Part shown: in pieces, positions 6,768 to 20,098 of the stretch
Numbering within the stretch: the stretch's first letter is position 1
Layout of the letters: the number at the start of each line of letters is the position of its first letter
Assembly: GCF_009649845.1 (NCBI RefSeq)
Contig: NZ_WJIE01000002.1
Span: 248,001 to 312,000 of the forward strand
Origin: Polyangium spumosum
GTDB lineage: Bacteria; Myxococcota_A; Polyangia; Polyangiales; Polyangiaceae
DNA length: 64,000 nt
Reading direction: 5' to 3'
Made by a program: the position numbers and the translations under genes
Notes under the pieces: generated by a model
Seen by the model: only the letters and a program-made list of their open reading frames with translations
Told to the model about the DNA's origin: nothing
The model's database searches: none

Positions 6768-7478
6768 ATGAGCCGCGTCTACGAGAACGAGCTGCGCACG
6801 CTCCGCGATCGGCTGCTCCTCATGGGCAGCCTCGTCGAGGAGATGATCGGCAAGGCGATGCAGGCGCTCGCCACGCGGGACACGGCGCTCGCGCGCTCGA
6901 CGATGAAGATGGACCGGCGCATCAACCGGCTGGAGGTCGAGATCGACGACCTCTGCATGCGCATCCTCGCGATGCGCCAGCCCGTGGCCTCGGACCTGCG
7001 CTTCGTCACGAAGGCGCTGAAGATCGTCACGGACCTCGAGCGCATCGGCGACCTCGGCGTGAACATCTGCGACCGCGTCGCCGAGCTGAACGAAGAGCCG
7101 CCGCTGCCCGCGACCTTCGACCTCGTCTCCCTCGCCGACGAGGCGACGCTCGTGGTGCGCGAGGCGCTCGACGCCCTCGTGGAGCGCGACGTCGACGGCG
7201 CGATGGAGCTGCTCGGGCGCGACGAGGCGATCGACGAGCACTACAGCGAGATCTGGAAGCGCCTGCTCGAGCTGATGACGAGCGACCCGACGACCATTTA
7301 CCGGGCGACGCGGGTGCAATCGATCGCGAAGTACCTCGAACGAATCGGCGATCACGCGATGAACATCGCCGAGACGGTGGTTTTCCTGGTCACGGGCAAG
7401 GACATCCGGCACCGGAATCGAAGGTACGAGACGGGCGCGCCGCCCCCGAACGACGGGGCGGAAGTGAAGTCCGGCTGA
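6768..7478 (+). CDS. phoU: Phosphate signalling/transport regulator PhoU
   Basis: A 236-residue PhoU homologue: two similar three-helix bundles. Each carries a metal-binding helix of the type (D/E)xxR(I/M)GD: DLERIGDLGVNICDR in the first and YLERIGDHAMNIAE in the second. PhoU links the Pst transporter to the PhoR/PhoB two-component pair and limits phosphate uptake. ATG 6768 is 29 bp after pstB, consistent with the same PHO-box-driven operon. The C-terminal 25 residues (after GKDIRHRNRRY) are a disordered extension beyond the usual end. Confidence 0.92.
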   Translation: MSRVYENELRTLRDRLLLMGSLVEEMIGKAMQALATRDTALARSTMKMDRRINRLEVEIDDLCMRILAMRQPVASDLRFVTKALKIVTDLERIGDLGVNICDRVAELNEEPPLPATFDLVSLADEATLVVREALDALVERDVDGAMELLGRDEAIDEHYSEIWKRLLELMTSDPTTIYRATRVQSIAKYLERIGDHAMNIAETVVFLVTGKDIRHRNRRYETGAPPPNDGAEVKSG

Positions 7479-7548
7479 CGGCGTTCCGGGCCCCGTGCCT
7501 CCCTCAAAACTTGCTGGGAGCCCGGGGACTTGTGCTAGGGCACGGCCC

Positions 7549-8442
7549 ATGGCGAAGTCAGCGCGACCCGTCACGATCGAGAGGCCCTCGCCGGCCGACG
7601 AGCGGCCCGCGTGGTCCCGGGTCGGGATCGTCGCCGCGGTCGGCTTCGTGCTGGGCGTCGCCTGGCCCAAGCTCGCGGGCGTGAACGTCGGCCCCAACGT
7701 GCCCGGCGACCTGAAGCCCCAGGCCGAAGCCACGGCGTCCGCCGCCCCCACCGCCGCGCCCGCCGCGCCCACGGCCGCCCCCACGGCCGAGCCCGCCGCC
7801 GCGCCCCCGCCGAACAAGCAGACCGTCGTCGTCGGCCCCGGCAAGATTAGCCGCTGCTGGGACAAGAAAAACAAGAAGGTCTCCGATTGTGGCGCCCTTC
7901 TGCTCGACCCCGTCGCGGTCCCCAAGCTCCAGAGCCTCGCCGAGTGCCCCTCCGCCCTCGGCCTCGCCGGCAAGCTCACGCTCACGATCGAGATCGATTT
8001 CAAGGACAAAGAGGTCCACGTCGTCAAGAACAGGAAAGACAAGACGACGATCCCCACCTCGACCGTCACCGGCATCCTCCAGTGCGGAAAACGCGCCTTC
8101 GCGAACCTGCCGCTCGAGGAGGTCCCGAACAAGTACCGCCATTACACGGTGCAATACGGCCTCACGTTTTACCCGCCCGGAAAGGCGCCCGAGGAGGCCG
8201 CCGCAGGCTCCGGCGAGGGCGAGGACGCCGCAGGCAGCACCACGAGCGAGGCTGAGGCCGGCGGCACGGGCGTCGTGACTTGGGACACGGCGCTCGTGCG
8301 CAAGGTGCCCAAGGACGGCACGGTCGTGGCGCGGCTCGTGCGCGGGACGAAGGTCAAGATCGTGGGCCGCCGCAACGAGTGGTACAAGATCGAGACCGGC
8401 TCGAAGACCGGCTGGGTCTACCGCGGCGCGCTCGGGCTCTGA
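7549..8442 (+). CDS. Membrane-anchored protein with C-terminal SH3 domain
   Basis: A 297-residue protein. One membrane helix lies near residues 24-42 (VGIVAAVGFVLGVAWPKLAG). An Ala/Pro/Thr-rich linker follows (about 58-85). A central domain of unknown type (about 90-215) has Cys residues in SRCWDK, SDCG, AECP and LQCGKR. A bacterial SH3 domain closes the protein (about 240-297: ALVRKVPKDGTVVARLVRGT, then GWVYRGALGL). SH3b domains usually bind peptidoglycan or peptides. ATG 7549 (MAKSARP) is preferred over an earlier ATG at 7495. The central domain most resembles a TonB/AgmX-like beta fold in myxobacterial proteins, but I cannot confirm it. Confidence 0.75.
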   Translation: MAKSARPVTIERPSPADERPAWSRVGIVAAVGFVLGVAWPKLAGVNVGPNVPGDLKPQAEATASAAPTAAPAAPTAAPTAEPAAAPPPNKQTVVVGPGKISRCWDKKNKKVSDCGALLLDPVAVPKLQSLAECPSALGLAGKLTLTIEIDFKDKEVHVVKNRKDKTTIPTSTVTGILQCGKRAFANLPLEEVPNKYRHYTVQYGLTFYPPGKAPEEAAAGSGEGEDAAGSTTSEAEAGGTGVVTWDTALVRKVPKDGTVVARLVRGTKVKIVGRRNEWYKIETGSKTGWVYRGALGL

Positions 8443-8511
8443 TTTTCCACGCCGATCTGGAAATCACGCCCCCCGGAACGATAAGCTCGGCCCCGAGGCG
8501 TTCTCGGGCCG

Positions 8512-9942
8512 ATGTCGAACACAAGCGCGCTCCCCTCGTCCCCCACGCGACGCCCCCGCCGCCATTTCCTGCTCCGCGGCGCGCTCGCGTCCGTCGTCGT
8601 CGCCGCCGCCGCGCTCTCGGCCTCCGCCGCCTGCAAGCACCTCCTGCCCGCCGAAGGCACGGTCGCGCGAGGTGTACGTATCGGCGGCGTCGAGGCAGGC
8701 CCGGGGACGCCACGCGAGGTCGCCGCGCGGCACGCGCGCGCCCTGCTCGAGAGGCGCGTCACGCTCACGATCGGCGAGGACGTGGCCCTCGAGACGTCGC
8801 TCGCCGAGCTCGGCGCGGCCGTCGACGAGCAGCGGCTCGCCACGCGCCTCGCGTCCGTGGGCCGCGAGGGAGACCTCGAGGCGCGCCTCGCCGACGCCCT
8901 CTCCGCGCGTGGCGGCGGCGTCACGGTCCCCGTCTTCGTCACCTTGCCGATCGAGCCCCTCGCCGCCGCGCTCGAGCGCCGCAAGGACGAGACCGACACC
9001 CCGCCCCGCGGCGCCCGCCTCGATTTCGCCACCGGAAAACCCACGGCGCACGTCTCCGGGAAATACCTCGACCTTTATGCCGCGGCCTCGGCGATCGAGC
9101 GGGCCGCCCAGAGCGGCGAATCCCGCGTCTCCGTCCCGACCTTCGAGATCCTGCCCGACGCGTCGAGCGAGGTCGTCGCCTCGATCGACGTCTCGCGTGT
9201 CGTCACGAAATACGAGACCCGCTTCGGATACCTCGGCGGGCAGGCGAACCGCGCGCAAAACGTGGCCCGCGCCGCGGCCGGGATCGACGGCGTCGTGCTC
9301 CTCCCCGGCGAGATGAAGAGTTTCAACGTCGAGGTCGGCCCTCGCACGAAGGATAACGGATTCACGACGGCGCCGGAGATCTGGAAGGGCGAGATGCGCG
9401 AGGGCATCGGCGGCGGCACCTGCCAGGTCGCGAGCACGTTACACGCGGCGGCGTACCTCGGCGGATTCGAGATCGCCGAGCGGAGCAACCATTCCCGGCC
9501 GAGCGGCTACATCCCGATGGGCCTCGACGCCACGGTCGTGTATCCACACGTCGACCTCAGGCTCAAGAACCCGTATTCGTTCCCCGTCGTCGTCCGCGCC
9601 GTCACGGACAAAGGCACGCTCACGGTCGAGATCCGCGGCAGCGGCGCGCCCGACGCGGTGGAATGGTCGAGCTCGACGATCGGCGTCTCCCCCTACAAGC
9701 GCAAGATCGAGGAGAACCCGGCCTTGACCGAGGGGCGCGTGGTCCTGAAGCAAAAGGGCATCAAGGGCTACCAGATCCGCAAGACCCGCGTGATGAAGTC
9801 CGAGGACGGCCGCGCGCGGGTCGAGGAGAAGACCGACGTCTATCCGCCGACGTTCGAGATCCTGATCGTCCCGCCCGGCCTCGATCCCGCGACCCTACCG
9901 CCGCTGCCCGGCGAACAGGCCGAGCGGCAATCGAGCGGATAA
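8512..9942 (+). CDS. VanW family protein
   Basis: A 476-residue exported protein. An Arg-rich N terminus precedes a hydrophobic signal segment (about 20-40). The N-terminal half has the helical repeats often found before VanW (peptidoglycan-binding-like; GVRIGGVEAG and similar). The VanW domain spans about 245-375, with its diagnostic GIGGGTCQVASTLHAAAY and the start PGEMKSFNVEVGPRTKDNGF. The C-terminal ~90 residues are a beta-rich tail. VanW proteins are cell-envelope proteins of unresolved activity, first named from vancomycin-resistance clusters; no other resistance gene is nearby. The last 48 bp overlap the 3' end of the convergent phosphoesterase gene. Confidence 0.85.
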   Translation: MSNTSALPSSPTRRPRRHFLLRGALASVVVAAAALSASAACKHLLPAEGTVARGVRIGGVEAGPGTPREVAARHARALLERRVTLTIGEDVALETSLAELGAAVDEQRLATRLASVGREGDLEARLADALSARGGGVTVPVFVTLPIEPLAAALERRKDETDTPPRGARLDFATGKPTAHVSGKYLDLYAAASAIERAAQSGESRVSVPTFEILPDASSEVVASIDVSRVVTKYETRFGYLGGQANRAQNVARAAAGIDGVVLLPGEMKSFNVEVGPRTKDNGFTTAPEIWKGEMREGIGGGTCQVASTLHAAAYLGGFEIAERSNHSRPSGYIPMGLDATVVYPHVDLRLKNPYSFPVVVRAVTDKGTLTVEIRGSGAPDAVEWSSSTIGVSPYKRKIEENPALTEGRVVLKQKGIKGYQIRKTRVMKSEDGRARVEEKTDVYPPTFEILIVPPGLDPATLPPLPGEQAERQSSG

Positions 9943-10677
9943 CCACGCCGAGAGCCCCCGCCGCCCTCTCGCCTCGAGCGCCGCGATCTTCGCCATCGCC
10001 AGCGTCGTGTCGTACGGCACGCGCCGGAACCGCGCGATCCCCTCGTCCATGTCGAGCACGGCGAACGACGCCCGCGGATCCCCGTCGCGTGATTGCCCCA
10101 CGCTGCCCGGGTTGATGAGGTAATGCGCCCCGTCGTCGAGCTTCACGATCTCGCCCGGCGCCGGCCCGAACGCGCCGCCCCGCGCCCGCCACGCCCCCGC
10201 GTGGTGCGTGTGCCCGAAGAGGCCGATCCGCGCGCCATACCCGCCCTCGCGCAGCGCGCGCAGGCTCTTCTCCAGCCGCGACAAACTCGACAGGTGCAGC
10301 TCGTCGTTCGGCGTCGGGTGCAGCGCCGCGTGGAAGAGCAAGACCTCGGAGGAGACCTTCCGGACGAGCGGCAACGACGCGAGCCAATCGTGGCTCGTGT
10401 CGCTCAGCATGCGGCGCGTCCATCGCATCGCCTCGCGCGCCTTCCGCCCGAAATGCGCCGTGTCCCTTAGCCCGAGCGCTGCGCGATCGTGGTTGCCCAC
10501 GACGCATTTCGCCCCCGCCGCCGCGAGCAAACGCGCGCACTCGTTCGGGTTCGCCCCGTACCCCACGACGTCGCCGAGGCACACGATCGCGTCGACCCTC
10601 TCCGCGTCGATCGCCGCGAGCACCGCGGAGAGGGCCTCGACATTCGAATGCACGTCCGACACGACGGCGTATCTCAC
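9895..10677 (-). CDS. Calcineurin-like metallophosphoesterase (YfcE/MJ0936 type)
   Basis: A 260-residue phosphoesterase with the full dimetal motif series: DVHSN (D8, H10), GDVVGYG, GNHD, and GHTHHAG. These residues bind two metals for phosphodiester or phosphomonoester hydrolysis. GTG 10677 is chosen because the upstream ATP-grasp gene ends in a GTGA overlap there (10674-10677) and the metal motif then begins at residue 8. It is the last gene of a three-gene reverse operon (13129 to 9895). The C-terminal ~30 residues extend past the usual fold. Substrate unknown; in this context perhaps a product of the ATP-grasp step. Confidence 0.85.
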   Translation of the reverse strand: MRYAVVSDVHSNVEALSAVLAAIDAERVDAIVCLGDVVGYGANPNECARLLAAAGAKCVVGNHDRAALGLRDTAHFGRKAREAMRWTRRMLSDTSHDWLASLPLVRKVSSEVLLFHAALHPTPNDELHLSSLSRLEKSLRALREGGYGARIGLFGHTHHAGAWRARGGAFGPAPGEIVKLDDGAHYLINPGSVGQSRDGDPRASFAVLDMDEGIARFRRVPYDTTLAMAKIAALEARGRRGLSAWLSARLPLGLFAGQRR

Positions 10678-11918
10678 GGCCGACCTGCCTTGCCCACGGC
10701 GCGCGAGGCCCGCTGCCCCACGCGCCTCGCGAGCGTGAGCACCAGCGGCCACGGGTCGTCCCACGCGAACACGTCGAACACCTTCGGCCTGCGGTACGAG
10801 GCCACGAAATCGCGGAGCGTGATCGCCCCGGAGGGCCCGTAATCGAGGAAAAACGCGCGCAGATCCCCCTCCACCGACGCCCAGCAGAGCCCCGGACGCG
10901 CCGGCCCCGTGCGCGGCGGCAAAAGCCCCGCGAGCTCGGCATACGCGACGAGCGGCAGGTTCGAGCCCGACGCCGCGCCGAGCCGGTTCCAGAGGTTGAA
11001 GCGCGGGTTCGCCTCCAGGAGGAAGAGCTCGCCGCTGCCGGCGTCGCGCTTGAAATCGAGCTTGACCATACCCACGAGCCCGAGCGCCCGCACGACCTCG
11101 AGCCCCACCCGCGTCACCTCGGGATCCGCGACGATCTCGATGAACGTGCTCTCCCCCGAGCCCGACGGGTACGTCCGTATCTTCTTGCCCACGTGAAACG
11201 CGACCGGCTCGCCGCGCCCATTCATCCAGGCGTGGAAGCTCGTGATATGGTCGTCGCCGCCGCGCACGTATCGCTGCACCACGAACGCGCACCCCGATCT
11301 GCGCATCTGCGCGAGGCGTTTGTCGAGCTCCTCCGGCGTCCACGCGAAGAGCGCCTTCCGGGGCAAACCGCCCTCCTCCTTCACCGCCGCGGACGCGCGA
11401 AAGCCGGTATGGTTGACGGGCTTGATCGCGCAAGGCAAGGGCACACGCGCGAGCACCTCCGCCCGCGAGCCGGCCTCCTCGCTCGTCACCGTCGCGGGCA
11501 CGGGCAGGCCGAGGCGGCGCGCGAGCGCGGCGAACCGCGCCTTGTCGACGAGCTCCTCGATGCGCTCGGCCGGGGGCATGAGAAATCGGTAATGCCGCGA
11601 GAGGACGCCCCGGTGGCGCGACACGCAGAGGAGCATGGCGTCCGTCCCGTAAAACAGCGCGGGCCGCCCGCCCGTCCGCTCGGCCAGGACCACGAGATCC
11701 TCGGCCGTCCGGTCCGGGTTCGTCGCCGGATCCGAGATCACGGCCGTCCGCTCCACGTGCCGCGATCCGAACGTCGGATCGCCCGCCCGCGTCGAGGCCA
11801 CGACGAACGGGATCTTCGGGACGGACAAACCCGCCCGCGCCGGCGCGTCCCCGGCGAAACACCGGACCATGTTCAGGTCGCCACAAAGGACGGCCGGCAC
11901 GAGTGATTCCTCGGGCAT
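10674..11918 (-). CDS. ATP-grasp ligase-like protein
   Basis: A 414-residue ATP-grasp protein of the carboxylate-amine ligase group. It has an N-terminal Rossmann-like part (VPAVLCGDLNMVRCF), the ATP-binding stretch LPCAIKPVNHTGF, and the metal-binding end LFLLEANPRFNLWN (E and N bind Mg). The LEANPRFN motif is also seen in CarB-like and amino-acid ligases. ATG 11918 (MPEES) is chosen because GGGAGGGAG lies about eight bases upstream; the frame is open to 11948. It is coupled to the downstream phosphoesterase by a 4-base overlap and lies 26 bp after the GNAT gene. Probably ligates a carboxylate to an amine on a small molecule or cell-surface glycan. Confidence 0.82.
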   Translation of the reverse strand: MPEESLVPAVLCGDLNMVRCFAGDAPARAGLSVPKIPFVVASTRAGDPTFGSRHVERTAVISDPATNPDRTAEDLVVLAERTGGRPALFYGTDAMLLCVSRHRGVLSRHYRFLMPPAERIEELVDKARFAALARRLGLPVPATVTSEEAGSRAEVLARVPLPCAIKPVNHTGFRASAAVKEEGGLPRKALFAWTPEELDKRLAQMRRSGCAFVVQRYVRGGDDHITSFHAWMNGRGEPVAFHVGKKIRTYPSGSGESTFIEIVADPEVTRVGLEVVRALGLVGMVKLDFKRDAGSGELFLLEANPRFNLWNRLGAASGSNLPLVAYAELAGLLPPRTGPARPGLCWASVEGDLRAFFLDYGPSGAITLRDFVASYRRPKVFDVFAWDDPWPLVLTLARRVGQRASRAVGKAGRP

Positions 11919-11944
11919 GGGTCTCCCTCCCCTGGTGCAGTCGA

Positions 11945-13129
11945 TCAAGGCTCTTCTTCGGCGAACGCCTCCGCCGGCCGCCGCTGCGAGGCCGGCTCGC
12001 CGCGCAGGCGCGCGATTTCCCGCGCGGCCCGCTCGGCGTGGTCACGCAAGGTCTCCCGCAGCGTCCGCCGCGCCGCGCGGATCTCCACGATCGGCCGCGA
12101 AGCGAGCGCGAGATCCAGCTTGTAACGCACGTCCCCTCCCAGGAAATCGTATTCGCGCCGGCCGGACTCGATGGCCATTCGAATGGCCATCGCGTGCGCG
12201 ACGATCCCCGGCCGGAGCTTCGCCGGCAAATCGGCCCGCCTGCCGCTCTGATAGAAATAAACCTTGTCGTTCCAGACGAGATTGTAAAGGGCCGCGATGG
12301 GCTCGCCGCCCGCCCGCAGCACCGAGAGCTCGAGCGCGCCACGCTCGAGGAGCGCGGGCATCACGGCGTCGTGGAACGCCCTGAATTTCGAGGACACGAA
12401 CACGCCCGTCCGCTCGTCCTTCTGCCAGCGCGCCTCGTGTAATGAAACGAGCGTGTCGCGCGCCGACGCGAGCTCCTCCGGCGTCCGCGCGACCGAAAAC
12501 ACGAGATCGCCCCGGGCGAAGCCCTCGAGATCCCGGATCGAGCGCCGCACCAGATACCGCCGCGACGAAGGCAACGCCGCGAGGTATGCCTCGAACGACC
12601 GCGGGAGCGTCACGTACGGGCTCCGCCCGCGCTCCGTCAGGGTCACCATCCATCCCCGCCGCCCGAGGGCGTCCGCCAGCGCGAACGGCGCGCGCTTGCT
12701 GCCATCCATCGCCGGCAGCACGACCTCGTCCCAGGCCCCCGCGAGGCCCCCTTCGAGCGCCCGCGCGGCCGCCTCCGCGACCACCTCCTCCGCGCCCCGC
12801 TCGGCCACGAGCCCGATGTATTCGGACACGATCTCGTCCGCCTCGTCCTCGCCCGAGGGCAATACCTCGAGCCGCCGGAACGGAACGCCGCGGTGCCAGA
12901 CGCGCCTCGCCACGAGCGGCAAGAGGCCCACGAGCCGCCCCTCCCCGGTGATCCGTAATGCACGGAGGCACCGGCCGTCCGTCCCCCCGAACACGCGCCA
13001 CCAGGCGAGGATCCAGAGCGGCGAGAGCATGGGCTCGTCGCCGTCGCTGCGCTCGAGCAGCGCCTCCCATTCACCCCGCATGGCCTCGAGGTCGGCGATA
13101 TCGGAGACGACGGTGCAGCAGAGTTCCAT
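11945..13129 (-). CDS. GNAT-fold acetyltransferase (BioF2/CelD-like, Acetyltransf_6)
   Basis: A 394-residue protein of the double-GNAT (FemAB-like) type. Features of the family are the N-terminal LEAMRGEWEALLERS, the central SSRRYLVRRSIRDLE, LHEARWQKDERTGVF, and the C-terminal YNLVWNDKVYFYQSGRR, then YDFLGGDVRYKLD. The family transfers acyl or aminoacyl groups, often in exopolysaccharide or cell-wall assembly. ATG 13129 follows GGGGGATCC and matches the expected N terminus; longer in-frame starts run into non-coding GC-rich sequence. It is the first gene of a reverse operon with the ATP-grasp and phosphoesterase genes, suggesting one surface-modification pathway. Confidence 0.82.
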   Translation of the reverse strand: MELCCTVVSDIADLEAMRGEWEALLERSDGDEPMLSPLWILAWWRVFGGTDGRCLRALRITGEGRLVGLLPLVARRVWHRGVPFRRLEVLPSGEDEADEIVSEYIGLVAERGAEEVVAEAAARALEGGLAGAWDEVVLPAMDGSKRAPFALADALGRRGWMVTLTERGRSPYVTLPRSFEAYLAALPSSRRYLVRRSIRDLEGFARGDLVFSVARTPEELASARDTLVSLHEARWQKDERTGVFVSSKFRAFHDAVMPALLERGALELSVLRAGGEPIAALYNLVWNDKVYFYQSGRRADLPAKLRPGIVAHAMAIRMAIESGRREYDFLGGDVRYKLDLALASRPIVEIRAARRTLRETLRDHAERAAREIARLRGEPASQRRPAEAFAEEEP

Positions 13130-13593
13130 GGATCCCCCAGGCCGCGCGGCCATTTCGAGCATCCCCCGAAAAACCGCGCGCTTCGTCGTATGGAGATCTC
13201 GCGCGCGCCCCACGCGCGCCGCTCGGACCGGGTGTAGGCACGGACTGCGCCCCACCGCGCCTTCCGCCCGGACCGACGCCGCTCGCCCGCTCCGCCTCGC
13301 CCGCGCGTGTCGTGGGCGGCCCGCGGTGCTCGCGGGACGCTCGCCTCCGTCCGCGCCTGGCCAGCGCCGGGCAAGCCCGTCTTTGGGCGCGGCAGCGGCC
13401 CGTCCGTCCTCGCCGACGAGGGCCCGACAAACTGCACGCTGCCGTGCGCCGTGAGCACATCCGCGGCTGCGCGGGCGGCTTCCTCGTGAGCTCTCGGGTT
13501 TTCCCGAAGCGTCGCGGCGCGTGCACTCGCCCCTTGACGCGGGCGGCACTTCCTTGTCCCATCGAGCCCCCCCGTACCTGGTCCGAGAGAGCC
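13130..13593. other. 464-bp divergent intergenic region
   Basis: It separates the GNAT operon (reverse) from the adenylate cyclase (forward). Both promoters should lie here, but none is convincing; the best trace is TTGACG near 13535. No gene-like reading frame. The GC-rich 13250-13340 stretch (GCGTGTCGTGGGCGGC) loosely recalls the degenerate repeats at 670-833. Confidence 0.4.
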
Positions 13594-14985
13594 GTGCTCG
13601 ACAACCTGAAGAAGCGAATATTCTCGCGCGATCGGCTCCCCGACGACATCCGGATCATCCTCCAGAATCAGGAGATGCGTGGCGAGCGGCTCGTCAACTA
13701 CGTGAGGGCCGTCTTCTCCGCATTCTCCCTGGGCATGATGTTCGTGTCGTCGGACGCGCAGGCCCCCGAGGCGCTTCGCACCTTCCGGCTCGTATTGGGC
13801 GCCTGGTTCGTCTACTCGGTCATCGTCTGGCTCCTGCTCAGGCGGCGTGATCGTTATTACCAGTGGCTCACATACCTCAGCATTACCGTCGACATCTCGG
13901 CGGTTTGCCTGGGCATGATCGGCAGCCTGCAGAACCATTCCGGCGTCTACGAGGTCTACCGGGCGCCCACGGGGTGGCTCGTCCTCGCCGCCTTCAACGT
14001 GATGGCGGGCCTGCGCTACAGCGTCTTCGCGGGCCTCTACTCGTCGTTCCTCGGCGTGCTCTACGCCGCCGCGATGCTCGTCTACGTGCGCCTCGAGCTC
14101 GACGTCACCTGGGTGGACAAGGCCGTCTACCTCGGCCCGGGCCTGAACCTGGACGAGTGCGTCATGGCCCTCCTGTTCAGCGCCACGAACGGGATCTTCG
14201 CGGCCGTCATCGCAGGCAACTCGCGCAAGCTCATCCTCCAGGCGGCGACGGATTCGCTCGCGCGCGAGCGGGTCGAGCAGGACAAGGACCGGCTCGCGAA
14301 GTACTTCTCGAAAGACGTCGTCGACCTCGTGCTGAACAACCCCGAGAGCCTCGCCATCGGCGGACAGCGGATGACGGCCACGGTGCTCTTCGCCGACATC
14401 CGCAACTTCACCCAGCTCTCCACGATGATGCAGCCCGAGGAGATCGTGGAGCTCCTGAACCGCTACTTCTCGACGATGGTCGACATCGTCTTCAAGAACG
14501 GCGGCACCCTCGACAAGTTCCTCGGCGACGGCCTCATGGCCCTCTTCGGCGTCCCCTACCCGATCGACCACCCCGAGGAGAGCGCCGTCCGCACCGCGCT
14601 CGAGATGCTCGACGCCCTGCAGGTCATGAACCGCGAGCTCGAGGCGAAAGGCATGCTCCGCCTCGACATCGGCGTCGGCATCAACGCCGGCCCCGTCGTC
14701 GCCGGCAACATCGGCTCCTCGCAGCGCCACGAGTACACCGTCATCGGCGACACCGTGAATCTCGCCGCGCGGCTCGAGGCGCTCAACAAGGAGACGCGCA
14801 CGCAGGTCCTCGTCTCCGCGTCCGTCCACCAGGCCATCCAGAACGTCTTCCGGACGCGCCAGCTCGGCCCGCTCCGCATCCGCGGCAAGCCCGAGCCCGT
14901 CGAGGTCTTCGCCGTCCTGCCCTCCGACGTCGTGCCCGAGCCGACGCGGATCTCCCTCCTGCCGCCCTCGACCACCTACCCGTGA
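13594..14985 (+). CDS. Membrane-bound class III adenylate cyclase
   Basis: A 463-residue cyclase. The N-terminal half (about 30-215) has roughly six membrane helices in a MASE-like sensor arrangement (VRAVFSAFSLGMMFVS, WFVYSVIVWLLL, then WLVLAAFNVMAGL). A short coiled coil (about 220-240) leads to the catalytic domain (about 255-440). Metal ligands are D268 (FADIRNFT) and D312 (LGDGLMALFG). K308 and D386 (in VIGDTVNLAARLE) match the adenine-recognising pair, so the product should be cAMP. GTG 13594 is weakly supported by GAGAG upstream. Its stop overlaps the GTG of the isoprenoid-synthase-like gene by four bases (14982-14985), so the two are translationally coupled, an unusual pairing. Confidence 0.88.
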   Translation: MLDNLKKRIFSRDRLPDDIRIILQNQEMRGERLVNYVRAVFSAFSLGMMFVSSDAQAPEALRTFRLVLGAWFVYSVIVWLLLRRRDRYYQWLTYLSITVDISAVCLGMIGSLQNHSGVYEVYRAPTGWLVLAAFNVMAGLRYSVFAGLYSSFLGVLYAAAMLVYVRLELDVTWVDKAVYLGPGLNLDECVMALLFSATNGIFAAVIAGNSRKLILQAATDSLARERVEQDKDRLAKYFSKDVVDLVLNNPESLAIGGQRMTATVLFADIRNFTQLSTMMQPEEIVELLNRYFSTMVDIVFKNGGTLDKFLGDGLMALFGVPYPIDHPEESAVRTALEMLDALQVMNRELEAKGMLRLDIGVGINAGPVVAGNIGSSQRHEYTVIGDTVNLAARLEALNKETRTQVLVSASVHQAIQNVFRTRQLGPLRIRGKPEPVEVFAVLPSDVVPEPTRISLLPPSTTYP

Positions 14986-16019
14986 CCCTCCTCGACGCCG
15001 CCTTCCCGAGTTACCTCGCGAAACAGGCGATGATCGACGCGGCCTGGGATCTCTGCGAGCGGCGCTTCGAGGCGCTCCCCGCCCCGCTCGACGAGATCGG
15101 CGCGCGTTTCCTCCGCTCCGTCGGGGAGGGCACGCCGTCCCACCGCGCCTACTTCTCCGGCCCGCTCGCGCCGCCGCTGCTCTACATGCCGCTCTGGCTC
15201 GCCGATCGCCTCACCGCCGAGGGCGCGCTCCCTGCACGGGCGCAGGCCTCGATCGCGCCGATCCTCGCGGGCACGATGCAGGGCTACTTCTACGTGCGCA
15301 TCCAGGACGACCTGCTCGACGACCCTGCGCGCGCCGATCACGAGCTCTTGCTCCTCGGCAACGCCTGCGTCGCCGGGATGGTCCTCGCCTACACCGAGGC
15401 GCTCGGCCCCCGCGCGCCCGCCTTCTTCCAGGCCTTCGATCGTGCCTTCTTGGCCTTCTCGCGCCTCACGCTCGCCGAGCAACGGGTGGTCCGCAGCGAC
15501 GATCCCTACCCCGAGGCCCTCTTCGAAGAACACGCCGGCAAGGTCGCCTTCGCGCGGGCGCCCCTGCTCGCCGTGGCCGCCCTCGCGGACGCGCTCCACC
15601 TCGAACCTTCGATCACGACCCTGATCGATCACCTCGGCGTCGCCTACGGCCTCGCGAACGACGTGCTCGGGTGGCCGCGTGATCTCCGCGCGGGTCACCG
15701 CACCTACCTGCTCGCCACCGCGGGGCTCACGCGCGCCGACCTCGATCGCATCGCCGCCCTCTCCGACGAACACGCGCGCGCCGAGGCGCACGAGGCCCTC
15801 GCCGAGCGGCTCCGGGGGACGCTCTACGAAGGCATGCTCCTCCGCCGCACCCTCGAGCGGGCGATCGCGGAGCAAGGCCGCGCCGCCGAGAGCGCCCGGG
15901 CTCTCGGGCTGCCCGGGTTCGAGGCGTACACCGCCGATCGCCTCGCCTGGCTCGGCGCGCTCGATCGCGAGATCCTCGCGATGTCCTTGAAGCGCGCGCT
16001 CGGCGGGCGCTCCCGCTGA
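14982..16019 (+). CDS. Isoprenoid-synthase-like (class I, DDxxD) protein
   Basis: A 345-residue, predicted all-helical protein. The first aspartate motif is DDLLDD (D109-D114, after FYVRIQ). The second region GVAYGLANDVLGWPRD (N226-D227) aligns with the GLAFQxxDDxLDxxxD of polyprenyl synthases, with the first Asp changed to Asn and the following Asp to Gly. RAGHRTYLL after it recalls the RxYLP of phytoene/squalene synthases. So the fold is class I isoprenoid synthase, but the exact reaction is unclear: prenyl chain elongation, head-to-head coupling or cyclisation. GTG 14982 overlaps the stop of the adenylate cyclase. Its stop directly abuts the stop of the convergent DxDD-type cyclase gene with no base between them. 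Confidence 0.7.
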   Translation: MTLLDAAFPSYLAKQAMIDAAWDLCERRFEALPAPLDEIGARFLRSVGEGTPSHRAYFSGPLAPPLLYMPLWLADRLTAEGALPARAQASIAPILAGTMQGYFYVRIQDDLLDDPARADHELLLLGNACVAGMVLAYTEALGPRAPAFFQAFDRAFLAFSRLTLAEQRVVRSDDPYPEALFEEHAGKVAFARAPLLAVAALADALHLEPSITTLIDHLGVAYGLANDVLGWPRDLRAGHRTYLLATAGLTRADLDRIAALSDEHARAEAHEALAERLRGTLYEGMLLRRTLERAIAEQGRAAESARALGLPGFEAYTADRLAWLGALDREILAMSLKRALGGRSR

Positions 16020-17873
16020 TCAACCCCGCGCGAGGCGCGCCCTCGTCCGGACGAACGCCTCGAGGCAAAGCGCGGCCGTGATCGAGCGCGCCCCGTGCGC
16101 CGCGAACGCGAAGTCCTTCCCCGGCGTGCGGTAAAACGGCTCCCGCGGGAAGAGCCCGTCGTAGTCCTGCCGGGACACGAGGAACGTCACGGCAGGCCAG
16201 GGATCAAAAGGCTCGAGGCGCCCACACGCGAGCACGCCGAGGTGACACGCCGTCGCCATCACGCCGCCTCCCAGGCTGCCGTCGGCCCGCTGAGAGCTCA
16301 CGATCCGCTGCTCGATGTCGCTCACGAGCGCGCGCAGACGAACACGCGGCGCCGGATCCCCGGGCAAACGTTCGGCCACGTCCGCGAGGCGCGCCAGCAG
16401 ATACCGCGCGAACGGGGTCGGGTAGAAGTGCACGGCCCTCCCCCCCTCCGCCTCCCAGACCCGCGTGATCCAGCCGAGCGTGCGATCGAAGTAGCCCTCC
16501 GGCAGCACGACGCCCGCCTCTGCGAGCCCGATCAGGGCGTTCGCCGCCACCGCGACGCACCGCGATCCGAGCCATCGCGGCGCGCCGTCCGGCGTGGGCT
16601 CGCGGAGGTGCTGCTCCAGCCACACGGCCATCGCCCCGTCCTCGCCCGTGTTGCGCACGAGCACCTCGATCGGCCAGGCGAGCGCCTCGACGGCCGCGGC
16701 GCGGCCTGCCGAGCGCGCGAGGAGCTGCAGCGCGAGGCCGAGATCGTCCGCGTCCGGCGGGATGCCCGCGAAGCCCTCGAAGTAGCGGAATCCATCCACC
16801 GAGCGCCGCGCGACGAGCGCCTCGACGCGCGGCGAGATGTCCTCGCCGACCCCGGCGAGCGGGAGCAAGCAGATCCCGACCGGGAACAGGCGGGCCACGT
16901 ACGCCTTGTCGAACGGCCCTCCCCAGCGCTGGAACTCCCACGACTCGCGGAGCTCCGGGTCGGCCGCGAGGCCCTGCCGGGCGAGCTCGATCGCCCGATC
17001 GAGCTCCTCCTCGGGCGTGGGGCCTCGGGGCGTGAAGCCGAACAGGCGGGCGGACCGCGTGGCGCGTGAGGTCTGCGTGGTCGTGGCCTCCACGAGCTCG
17101 CGCGTGTCCTCTCCGTCGAGGGCTTCGTGCACCTCGCTGGCCCAGCCTGCGCACGTCGCGTCGAGGCGCGCGGAGAGCTTCGGATCTCCGACGAGCCGGA
17201 GCAGCGGCAGCCGATCGGGCGCGGGTTTGGCGGCGTGGGCGAGCGCGAGATCGAGCTCGCGCCCGAGCCCCGCGCCGCGCGCGATCGTGCCGAGGAGCTG
17301 GGGCCTCGGCGCGCTCGCGCCGACGCCGGAGAACGCGCGGGCTTCGAGCGCGAGGCGAACGAGGCATCCGAGCGCATCTGCGGCCCGAGCGAGCCCGGGA
17401 TCGTCCGGACGACCGACCAGGGCGGGCAGGAGGAGCGACAAACCGTACGTCGCGAGCGGGGACGACGCGGGGATCGTGGCCGCCTCACCGAGCTCGTCGA
17501 GCGCATCCCCGACGGCGACGATCACCGCGTCGATCGCCTCGCGCGCCTCGGGGTCGATCGAGAGGCTGCCGCGCTCGCGCGAGGCGAGCAGGAGCCATGC
17601 TGCGGGGGAAAACGGCGCCTCTTCGTCCTCGGCCGGCATGGGCTCGAGAGGCGCGGGGAGACGCGCGGCGGCGTGGATGGCCGCGGCGAGCAGGAGGAAG
17701 GTACGAACGATGGGCTCGTGCGCGCCGGGGCGACGAGCATCCGCGAGACGCCCGAGGAGGTTCGCCGCGCCGCGGAGCGCGTCCTCTTCGAGCCCGAGCG
17801 TTTGCAGAGACGCTTGGGCTCGCCGCACCTCGGCGCGGGGCAAACCATCCCAGACGGGGCGGAGCGTGTTCAC
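16020..17873 (-). CDS. Class II terpene-cyclase-like (prenyltransferase/squalene-oxidase repeat) protein
   Basis: A 617-residue soluble helical protein. Residues 374-377 read DADD, matching the DxDD acid motif of class II terpene cyclases (squalene-hopene, copalyl-diphosphate synthase). The C-terminal third has repeat-like units of the alpha/alpha-toroid type (RIVSSQRADGSLGGG near 535, VSRQDYDGLFPREPFY near 575). The GTG start has no strong Shine-Dalgarno sequence. It lies 58 bp behind the leader-type peptide gene on the same strand, so the two probably form an operon. Alternatives: an alpha/alpha-toroid peptide-modifying enzyme (the fold is shared with LanC-type cyclases and protein prenyltransferases), since the neighbour is a RiPP-like peptide. 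Confidence 0.65.
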   Translation of the reverse strand: MNTLRPVWDGLPRAEVRRAQASLQTLGLEEDALRGAANLLGRLADARRPGAHEPIVRTFLLLAAAIHAAARLPAPLEPMPAEDEEAPFSPAAWLLLASRERGSLSIDPEAREAIDAVIVAVGDALDELGEAATIPASSPLATYGLSLLLPALVGRPDDPGLARAADALGCLVRLALEARAFSGVGASAPRPQLLGTIARGAGLGRELDLALAHAAKPAPDRLPLLRLVGDPKLSARLDATCAGWASEVHEALDGEDTRELVEATTTQTSRATRSARLFGFTPRGPTPEEELDRAIELARQGLAADPELRESWEFQRWGGPFDKAYVARLFPVGICLLPLAGVGEDISPRVEALVARRSVDGFRYFEGFAGIPPDADDLGLALQLLARSAGRAAAVEALAWPIEVLVRNTGEDGAMAVWLEQHLREPTPDGAPRWLGSRCVAVAANALIGLAEAGVVLPEGYFDRTLGWITRVWEAEGGRAVHFYPTPFARYLLARLADVAERLPGDPAPRVRLRALVSDIEQRIVSSQRADGSLGGGVMATACHLGVLACGRLEPFDPWPAVTFLVSRQDYDGLFPREPFYRTPGKDFAFAAHGARSITAALCLEAFVRTRARLARG

Positions 17874-17931
17874 GACTCAGCGAGCGGGGTTTGCGCGGGC
17901 GTGCTGCCCGCGCAGTCCACGCGGGGCGGGT

Positions 17932-18150
17932 TCAGCTCGCGGCCTTGCGCTGGGCCATCTGGCTCTCGAGGCCTTGCGCCATCGCGTTCACCTCATCGGG
18001 ATTGGCGCTCTTGATAGCCTCGATCACCTCGGGCCCGGCCTCGTATCCCTCGGCCGTCAGCGTGGCTTCGGGTGCCGCGAGCAGCTTCTTTCGGAACTCC
18101 ACGTCCGTCAGCGCGCGACCAATGAGCTCTTCGACGCTCTTCTTCGACAT
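17932..18150 (-). CDS. NHLP/Nif11-like leader-type peptide (candidate RiPP precursor)
   Basis: A 72-residue peptide. Residues about 5-35 (VEELIGRALTDVEFRKKLLA, then PEATLTAEGYE) have the helix-turn pattern of the Os1348/NHLP-clan leader peptides: a two-helix acidic leader with 'tDvEFRkkLLaaPEatL'. The C-terminal 20 residues (ending MAQRKAAS) hold no Cys or Trp and only two Ser, so a classic lanthipeptide, thiopeptide or cyclobactin-like core is not evident; there is no Gly-Gly cleavage site either. GAGGTG lies upstream of ATG. A promoter fits at 18216-18245. Neighbours: DxDD cyclase-like gene downstream and, diverging, a PqqD-like/M50 membrane protease. That context supports a leader-peptide role. 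Confidence 0.7.
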   Translation of the reverse strand: MSKKSVEELIGRALTDVEFRKKLLAAPEATLTAEGYEAGPEVIEAIKSANPDEVNAMAQGLESQMAQRKAAS

Positions 18151-18215
18151 GACAACACCTCACGTATGCTCCGCGGCCCGAGCCAATGCTGGACGCTGGA
18201 GATCGAATGTACCAT

Positions 18216-18245
18216 CGGATACAGCGGGATCAGCCTCGTTGTCAA
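18216..18245 (-). promoter_or_regulatory. Sigma-70-type promoter for the leader-peptide gene
   Basis: On the minus strand TTGACA (18245-18240), an 18-bp spacer and TATCCG (18221-18216). Transcription would start near 18209, leaving a leader of about 60 nt to ATG 18150. The -35 is perfect; the -10 matches three of six. Confidence 0.4.
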
Positions 18246-18322
18246 GGAGCCACAGGTGCGGCTCTTTGCTCGCCAGGGCCACCATGGTAGTCTGGCGCTG
18301 ACGGGCCGTTGTGCAGGAGCTC

Positions 18323-19558
18323 ATGAGCGAAAAGTCGAAGCCCGAGCTCGAGCTCCTGATCCGGTCCCGGCCCGGCGGCCCGAATCTCCCTGGATCGAGC
18401 GGCGGATTCGTCACGCGCCGTTATGTCGCGAACCAGGTCGCGCTCACCGTGAAGCCGCGGCGCATCCCGGAGGAGAGCTACGAGATCCAGGCCCAGTCGC
18501 GCAAGGATCGCAAGCTCTTTTACGTGATCCGGCAGCTCGAGGCCGACAAATACCTCTTCCTGAACGAGGAGGAGTATTTCCTCTGGCAGAAGATGGACGG
18601 CCTGCACACGCTGCGCGACGTCGCGACGGCGTACTTCCTGAAGTTCGGGTCGTTCGACTTCCGGGTGATCCAGCGGTTTCTGGCGCGCGCCCGCGAGAAC
18701 AAGCTCATCGTCATCCCGCAGACCGATCTCGTGCGGCGCTCGCTCGCGGACGAGCCGGTCTCAATGCGCTCGCAGTACCTCGCGAGGCTACGCGGGGTCG
18801 ACCTGCGGCTGCCGAACGTCGATCAAAAGCTCGGCGTCCTTTACGGTCGGATGCGCGTCCTCTTCACGCGTCCCGCGTTCGCGTGTTACGCGATCCTGCT
18901 CGTCATCGGCGGCGTGGCGATCGTGCAGCAGGCGGGGCGCGGCTCGGGCGCCGAGGTCCTGCACGCGGGGCACGCGCTGCTCGTGCCCGTCTTCTTGCTC
19001 TTGCACGTCATGACCGTCGTCGTGCACGAGCTCTCGCACGCGCTCGCCTGCAAGCACTTCGGCCGCGAGGTGAAGGCGTTCGGCTTCACGTTCATGAACC
19101 GGCTCATGCCGAGCGTGTACGCCGACGTGACGGACATGTGGATGTCGACCCGCAAGGCGCGCATGGCCGTGAGCTTCGCGGGTCCGCTCTCCGGGCTGCT
19201 CCTCGGCAGCGCGGGCGCGATCCTCGCGTGGATCCTGCCTCCTGGCATCCCCTCGTCGTTCTTCTGGTTCGTCGCGATCACGATCCTCGCGCTCGCGCTC
19301 GGCAGCCTCTACCCGTGCCTCTTCATCGAGTCCGACGGCTACCACATCCTGAGCGACTGGCTCCGCATGCCCGCGCTGCGCGAGCACAGCCGCCGTGTCC
19401 TGCGCGACACGCTCCGCGATCTCGTGCGTGGCAAAAAAACGCGGCCCTTGACGAGCGACGAGCGCACCTACTTCCTGTATGGAATCGCTTCGTTCGTCAG
19501 TGTCTCCGTCGTCTTGACCACGCTCGCCACGCTCGCCACGCTCCGCCTGATGCGCTGA
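18323..19558 (+). CDS. PqqD-like domain fused to M50 membrane zinc protease
   Basis: A 411-residue protein. Residues about 50-130 (KLFYVIRQLEADKYLFLNEE, then the WQKMDGLHTLRDVATAYF stretch) form a PqqD-type winged fold, the RiPP recognition element used to bind leader peptides. The C-terminal half is an M50 site-2-protease-like membrane domain: zinc motif HELSH (H235-E-L-S-H239) and a third ligand Asp in ESDGYH (D338). Several membrane helices frame both sites. ATG 18323 is chosen over GTG 18311 because AGGAG lies four bases before it. Such proteins are annotated as putative peptide zinc metalloproteases and occur beside RiPP genes. It diverges from the leader-type peptide gene and is followed at 18 bp by the cNMP-fold gene. 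Confidence 0.85.
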   Translation: MSEKSKPELELLIRSRPGGPNLPGSSGGFVTRRYVANQVALTVKPRRIPEESYEIQAQSRKDRKLFYVIRQLEADKYLFLNEEEYFLWQKMDGLHTLRDVATAYFLKFGSFDFRVIQRFLARARENKLIVIPQTDLVRRSLADEPVSMRSQYLARLRGVDLRLPNVDQKLGVLYGRMRVLFTRPAFACYAILLVIGGVAIVQQAGRGSGAEVLHAGHALLVPVFLLLHVMTVVVHELSHALACKHFGREVKAFGFTFMNRLMPSVYADVTDMWMSTRKARMAVSFAGPLSGLLLGSAGAILAWILPPGIPSSFFWFVAITILALALGSLYPCLFIESDGYHILSDWLRMPALREHSRRVLRDTLRDLVRGKKTRPLTSDERTYFLYGIASFVSVSVVLTTLATLATLRLMR

Positions 19559-19576
19559 TCCCGAGGCCAGAACCCG

Positions 19577-20098
19577 ATGAAGTTCAAGCCGCGACCGCTC
19601 CGCAACGACCAGATCAAGGACTGCGCCCGCATGCTCCGGCGCGTCAGTTTGTTCGCCGCCTGGTCGCCCGACGAGATCGAGGAGTTCGCCGCGCACGTGC
19701 AGCTCCTGCCCTTCCCCGCGCAGGAGGTCGTGCTCTGGGAGGGCGACGCGGGCGACGTGCTCTACATCATCGCCGAGGGCAGCGTCGTCGTCTCACGAAG
19801 GCTCAAGGGCGACGTCGAGACCGTCATCTGCCGCCTTCACGCGGGCGACTTCTTCGGCGAGCTCGACGTCATCGACGATCAGTCCGCCTCGGCGAACGTG
19901 CAGACCGAGACGCAGTGCCTCTTCTACACGATCGATCGCGACACGCTCTACCGCGAGCTCGAGGCGAACCCGCGCGTCTATTCGAAGTTCCTGCTCGCCC
20001 TCCTCAAGGAGGTCGCCAAGCGCCTGCGCACCACGAACCAGCGGCTCATCGACGCGATCCTCTGGGGCATCGACGCGACGTCGCTCGACACGGGCTGA
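19577..20098 (+). CDS. Cyclic-nucleotide-binding-fold protein
   Basis: A 173-residue single CNB domain (about 30-150), with the typical start RRVSLFAAWSPDEIEEFA, the hinge EGDAGDVLYIIAEGSVVV, and the phosphate cassette FFGELDVIDDQSASANV. The Arg that normally contacts the cyclic phosphate is replaced by Gln (Q102), while FGE is kept. So the fold is clear but cAMP binding in the canonical way is doubtful. No DNA-binding domain follows; the C-terminal ~35 residues are helical (AKRLRTTNQRLIDAILWGI). It lies 18 bp behind the M50 gene, in the same operon, and shares this region with an adenylate cyclase. In NHLP-type secretion systems CNB domains occur fused to transport proteins; here it stands alone. 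Confidence 0.85.
   Translation: MKFKPRPLRNDQIKDCARMLRRVSLFAAWSPDEIEEFAAHVQLLPFPAQEVVLWEGDAGDVLYIIAEGSVVVSRRLKGDVETVICRLHAGDFFGELDVIDDQSASANVQTETQCLFYTIDRDTLYRELEANPRVYSKFLLALLKEVAKRLRTTNQRLIDAILWGIDATSLDTG

Follow-up and report, generated by a model that had tools for sequence, protein, structure and literature searches.

Do a membrane adenylate cyclase, two terpene-fold proteins, a leader-like peptide, a metalloprotease and a cyclic-nucleotide-binding (CNB) protein, encoded side by side in Polyangium spumosum, form one functional system and, if so, what might it do? The six genes occupy positions 13594–20098 of the stretch of 64,000 nucleotides that was analysed as a whole (the window), and all were present at the positions proposed in a preliminary description of this DNA. 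Judged from the gene neighbourhoods of other bacteria, the cyclase, a class I isoprenoid-synthase-fold enzyme, a peptide of the Os1348/NHLP type, the metalloprotease and the CNB protein recur as a set, which some lineages extend by a two-domain class II protein. We tentatively interpret the locus as one conserved system resembling those of ribosomally synthesized and post-translationally modified peptides (RiPPs). The class I enzyme and the optional class II cyclase would modify the peptide or build on it, and the protease would process it under the control of the cyclase and the CNB protein. The components of the locus are arranged as follows:

13594–14985, + strand: membrane class III adenylate cyclase, P0001 (PF00211, 1.6e-29)
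14982–16019, + strand: class I isoprenoid-synthase-fold enzyme, P0002 (DDLLD and NDVLGWPRDL motifs; AlphaFold2 model and structure comparison)
16020–17873, − strand: two-domain class II-type protein, P0003 (DADD at residues 374–377; AlphaFold2 model and structure comparison)
17932–18150, − strand: 72-amino-acid leader-like peptide of the Os1348/NHLP clan, P0004 (PF14407, NF038399)
18151–18310, no strand: 160 bp separating the divergent peptide and protease genes; by its position, this gap presumably holds the promoters of both
18311–19558, + strand: M50 intramembrane metalloprotease, P0005, with an N-terminal PqqD-like/winged helix-turn-helix-like region at about residues 40–150 (Peptidase_M50, 1.6e-7)
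19577–20098, + strand: stand-alone protein of the cyclic-nucleotide-binding fold, P0006 (PF00027, cNMP_binding, 4.8e-19)

The 4-base overlap of the cyclase and class I genes and the start of the CNB gene 18 bp after the M50 gene agreed with the preliminary description, as did the DDxxD motif of the class I product (DDLLD, residues 109–113) and the DxDD motif of the class II product (DADD). The class I gene and the oppositely oriented class II gene meet tail to tail at 16019/16020, and the peptide gene lies 58 bp upstream of the class II gene on the same strand.

Co-Occurrence of the Components in Other Genomes

The whole neighbourhood was kept in all six Polyangium genomes. The flanking genes for VanW, ATP-grasp, GNAT and CPBP proteins were also syntenic within the genus, hence conservation inside Polyangium proves little. 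These four were rejected as parts of the system, since they did not accompany it outside Polyangium.

More distant loci (L numbers below) were more telling. All six parts were found in three loci of family f35, which belongs to another myxobacterial class (L082, L083 and L089), in a rearranged order and with 25–49% identity; in L089, both terpene-fold genes had broken reading frames, perhaps due to an assembly error. Five parts were found in f35 locus L081, its M50 gene being cut by the contig end, and the peptide, class II and cyclase genes lay on a 5.6-kb contig in L080. The Sorangium loci L030–L034 showed yet another order, class I–peptide–class II–cyclase, within one tight operon of overlapping or abutting genes (27–40% identity). 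The Sorangium variant is devoid of an M50 gene; a gene for a papain-type peptidase (L030:6629–8632, PF00112, 5.9e-8) is divergent from the class I gene, and its product may act as the protease of this variant. In family f41, the order cyclase–class I–peptide–M50 was observed in 11 of 11 loci, with the CNB gene seen in two; this family lacks the class II gene, which is an optional part of the system. Three loci of f26 encoded the class I enzyme, the peptide and the cyclase, and a fourth encoded the peptide and the cyclase.

The set extends to other phyla. Two Chloroflexota loci (L045 and L050) had the order class I, HExxH protein fused to a C-terminal CNB domain, peptide, class II. In L045, the class I enzyme has a cyclase/ATPase protein as its neighbour; of this protein, the DNA retrieved for L050 contains the ATPase part alone. 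The HExxH–CNB fusion provides support of the Rosetta-stone kind for a predicted link between the protease and the CNB protein. In Methylococcaceae (L044:82–11907), two Os1348 peptides and a class II protein were accompanied by three proteins of the B12-binding/radical-SAM type, one of which matched TIGR03975 (RiPP C-methyltransferase) at 1e-199.

The genome of the window encodes 17 cyclase domains in 10.76 Mb, and the chance of finding one less than 4 kb from a given gene is approximately 1%; the repeated co-occurrence in rearranged loci is therefore not a matter of chance. Altogether, the six genes belong together, as had been proposed, by virtue of their co-occurrence with shuffled order in other families and phyla; the order itself is not conserved.

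The Terpene-Fold Proteins

Neither P0002 nor P0003 matched any model in Pfam or NCBIfam. Their folds were assigned with the use of AlphaFold2, AlphaFold being one check named in the preliminary description, on alignments, followed by Foldseek/VIA structure comparison, and both proposed terpene folds proved to be real. The P0002 model (pLDDT 88.3) aligned with the polyprenyl synthase 4jyx_H over 284 residues (VIA Z 23.9, root-mean-square deviation 2.8). The D[DN]xxD motif was present in every aligned homologue covering that site, and the second motif (NDVLGWPRDL) was likewise kept in the homologues covering it. P0002 is thus predicted to adopt the all-helical class I isoprenoid synthase fold with DDxxD.

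In the P0003 model (pLDDT 79.9), the C-terminal single toroid with DxDD (residues ~283–617) gave VIA Z scores of 30.3 with 8paj, 28.0 with MstE (6sbd) and 26.9 with squalene–hopene cyclase (2sqc), i.e., 26–30 against class II cyclases versus approximately 22 against other alpha6/alpha6 toroids. The C-terminal half is accordingly modelled as an alpha-toroid of the class II terpene cyclase type. Its D374 and D376, the first and third residues of DxDD, were conserved, and the fourth Asp varied even between Polyangium species. The N-terminal domain is class I-like and lacks DDxxD in the window protein. The class I profile matched this half in L035, L045 and L050, the class II family profile matched polyprenyl synthases through the N-terminal region, and PF00348 was found in four of the 17 family members. 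Without DDxxD, the domain of the window protein is most likely a catalytically inactive relic or serves in binding.

Some matches of the class II profile were discarded. The weak ones in Chloroflexota and Methylococcales were mostly ordinary polyprenyl synthases or hopene cyclases, as judged by the matched region of the profile. Those in family f39 and in L090 were class I–class II fusions and were set aside as a related but separate group: the fusions of L084, L086, L087 and L090 retain DDxxD in the class I part and have no neighbouring Os1348 peptide. Those of L084, L086 and L087 adjoin a membrane sensor (a histidine kinase, confirmed in L084), and a response regulator is encoded in L084 and L086.

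The Peptide

The NHLP-like peptide noted earlier beside the class II gene is a member of the Os1348/NHLP clan: P0004 scored above the curated cut-offs of both NF038399 (Os1348 family NHLP clan; 2.4e-17, 62.8 bits vs. 40) and PF14407 (2.3e-16, 60.3 bits vs. 48). The homologues from L082, L045, L044 and L156 also exceeded the family-model cut-off, and that of L036 fell below it at 35.7. Among the myxobacterial and Chloroflexota genomes checked that have class I/II neighbours, the window's genome included, the Os1348-type peptide was present in one copy per genome, at this locus. As in RiPP systems, the precursor is encoded beside putative modifying enzymes, the enzymes being of class I/II in Myxococcota and Chloroflexota and of class II in Methylococcaceae. 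P0004 ends in ...AQRKAAS, a tail of the RKAA type that is common to family f35; the f41 tails contain Tyr (GEYLA, GDYVC).

Two further arrangements were found around such peptides. In L163 (Chloroflexota), an NHLP-type leader domain (TIGR03793, 6.6e-11) is fused to a class II toroid (7412–8869), and an NHLP-type precursor ending in LCCCW is encoded nearby (2104–2496). In L203 (7870–10424), the gene for an Os1348-type peptide precedes those for a membrane protein with a SpoIIE domain and for a 303-amino-acid RDxxLD protein; the latter may be a distant relative of the class I enzyme.

The Protease and the Cyclase

P0005, the single match of its kind in the window's genome, carries HELSH at residues 239–243, and HExxH was invariant in the homologues. 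The daptide HExxH model NF041824 matched residues 72–409 (2.7e-34), but daptide membership was rejected since the score of 118.9 bits was far below the cut-off of 300 and the tested neighbouring proteins matched no other daptide model.

In P0001, D268, D312, K308, T382, N389 and R393 were invariant in eight homologues. We take these to be the metal, specificity and transition-state residues, and their presence points to a class III adenylate cyclase with a complete set of them in the catalytic domain. A profile of the N-terminal membrane domain matched the cyclases at the loci of Polyangium, Sorangium, f35 and f41. None of seven other top-scoring cyclases of the window's genome gave a match, by which measure the membrane domain is dedicated to the system.

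Comparison with Known Systems

The nearest precedent is PalX, an NHLP precursor of Paenibacillus alvei that is prenylated by PalQ, an enzyme of the isoprenoid-synthase superfamily, and is encoded beside the histidine kinase PalP (PMC10853753). The precursor type, the enzyme acting on it and the adjacent sensor are shared features; however, PalX ends in Trp, which is the acceptor, the sensor is a histidine kinase, and a class II cyclase, an M50 protease or a CNB protein were not reported there. The locus closest in look to PalX/PalQ is L036 of Polyangiaceae (7028–14901), with two radical-SAM-like proteins, a 1377-amino-acid cyclase fusion, a class I enzyme and a peptide ending in QWC. Another relative is the prenylated pheromone system ComQXPA of Bacillus, which includes ComP/ComA as well. 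The likeness to the Polyangium locus lies in a small peptide, prenylated by an enzyme of the isoprenoid-synthase fold (ComQ acting on ComX; PMC10853753), and sensed by a membrane protein. The Bacillus system differs by the lack of an NHLP leader and of a class II cyclase, by a histidine kinase in place of the adenylate cyclase and by the Trp acceptor.

MstE, a single-toroid class II cyclase, works on a prenyl chain that a different group carries. It shares the toroid fold and the DxDD motif with P0003, but the identity is only approximately 16%, and P0003 has the additional N-terminal class I-like domain and a genetic tie to a peptide. The daptide metalloprotease resembles P0005 as an M50 HExxH protease with an N-terminal region and a RiPP context; apart from the low score, no other daptide genes were seen at the locus. 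Finally, the Os1348 cluster of Pseudomonas sp. Os17 encodes a peptide of the same family with an acetyltransferase, an HExxH protein, a SagB-type dehydrogenase and efflux genes, but neither terpene-fold enzymes nor a cyclase (PMC7726476).

Proposed Mechanism and Alternative Explanations

In the proposed mechanism, the class I enzyme would ionise an allylic diphosphate at DDxxD, and the prenyl chain would then be put on the peptide or on something carried at its C-terminus. The class II toroid would protonate and cyclise that chain, as MstE does on a prenylated acceptor, and the M50 protease, steered by its N-terminal PqqD-like region, would free the product. The cyclase might sense a cue, perhaps the product itself, from the membrane or from outside the cell, and the CNB protein would link proteolysis or release to cAMP or a different ligand. 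The whole would amount to a signalling circuit of the ComQXP/PalQXP type, with a cyclase replacing the histidine kinase. We infer every step from modification onward, with peptide-borne prenylation, cyclisation and proteolytic release drawn from the PalX/PalQ and MstE precedents. In its most specific form, a new class of peptide–terpenoid signalling in which a prenyl chain on an Os1348-type scaffold is cyclised by the class II enzyme and released under the gating of the membrane cyclase and a CNB-coupled protease, the proposal is possible but doubtful.

Several observations weigh against the interpretation as a RiPP-like system. No exporter was identified adjoining the genes. The peptide tails of the lineages bearing class II (RKAAS/T/A/F, NRAAI, NQAAV, QAAT, DKIAA, GGVGM) contain no Trp, Tyr or Cys. 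P0004 is devoid of the Trp expected in the partner of a ComQ/PalQ-type enzyme and only the L036 peptide ends in WC. For want of an acceptor in the tail, the ComQ/PalQ chemistry is not simply transferable; attachment may proceed via Lys, the C-terminal carboxylate or an added group, or else the peptide may play the role of a carrier. The tail is conserved, not variable, and no variable core was seen, the entire peptide being conserved. Of the fusion of PqqD to an M50 protease suggested earlier, the M50 part stood, but the PqqD part found little backing, with PF05402 detected in one of six P0005 homologues at E 0.013 and no match for this region in a sequence search of the PDB. The proposed gating through the cyclase/CNB pair fared similarly: the link of the protease with CNB gained from the Chloroflexota fusion, and cAMP sensing by P0006 was called into question. 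An Ala occupies the site of the phosphate-cassette Arg in each of the five stand-alone CNB homologues aligned (A104 in P0006, presumably the position of the phosphate-binding Arg by the PKA/CAP consensus), whereas the CNB domains of the Chloroflexota fusions retain the Arg (EARKATV, DPRYATV). This replacement makes cAMP sensing by P0006 doubtful, and the myxobacterial CNB protein may bind a cyclic nucleotide elsewhere, differently or not at all. Finally, in seven Chloroflexota loci (L208–L214), an Os1348-type peptide directly follows a class III cyclase/ATPase protein of approximately 1450 amino acids with neither class I nor class II enzymes; the peptide therefore has a role independent of the terpene-fold enzymes. 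The L208 and L213 tails end in GRGFI/GRGFV.

The alternative that survives best, although we consider it rather unlikely, is that the product is a free terpenoid, formed by the class I and class II enzymes in the style of two-enzyme diterpene synthesis. The peptide would serve, unmodified, as a helper, carrier or regulator, and the cyclase and CNB protein would regulate the process or sense the lipid. A conserved peptide with no acceptor residue in its tail would suit such a role, and so would the f39 and L090 fusions, which manage without a neighbouring peptide, those of f39 beside a histidine kinase. The class I enzyme of f41 nevertheless stays with the peptide despite the absence of class II, and the association of class II with RiPP-maturation radical-SAM enzymes and peptides in L044 and with a fused NHLP leader in L163 also speaks against this alternative.

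It is distinctly improbable, in our view, that the core of the system is a cyclase–peptide signalling pair, in which the Os1348-type protein partners or regulates class III cyclases, with the terpene-fold enzymes and proteases as lineage-specific means of modifying or turning over that partner. The Chloroflexota loci with the peptide and the cyclase alone favour such a core, as do the pairing of the cyclase with the peptide in Polyangium, Sorangium, f35, f41, f26 and f39 and the specificity of the cyclase's membrane domain, in myxobacteria, for the system. Perhaps the pair of peptide and cyclase is the older unit. On the other hand, no cyclase was seen in the DNA retrieved for G165 and L044, which both encode the peptide and class II, and the cyclase was absent from five of the 12 Chloroflexota peptide loci examined. 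That the genes are chance neighbours with no common function, held together by recent ancestry alone, is very improbable despite the equally syntenic wider neighbourhood in Polyangium, and was rejected: the preliminary description would have given up the linkage had the genes never co-occurred, and the parts recur at 25–49% identity in other orders, strands and flanks, in other families and phyla, without the Polyangium flanking genes.

Significance

All parts of the system fall within known folds or families. No paper joining an adenylate cyclase, a RiPP, a prenyltransferase and a precursor peptide, or NHLP and an adenylate cyclase, was found in the searchable literature, outside which most subscription journals lie. 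There is a real chance that the RiPP-like system, nearest to PalXQ, constitutes a new class. If so, a ribosomal peptide would be the substrate of terpene-cyclase chemistry, a route absent from that literature, and cyclic-nucleotide signalling would be linked to RiPP maturation. The poorly understood Os1348/NHLP peptides gain a recurrent and testable set of partners. The lineages, moreover, provide a natural deletion series for the role of each part: f41 without class II, f35 and Polyangium with it, and the Chloroflexota forms with the cyclase and the peptide only. The finding suggests that a ComQXP-like circuit with a cyclase output may operate in myxobacteria and Chloroflexota.

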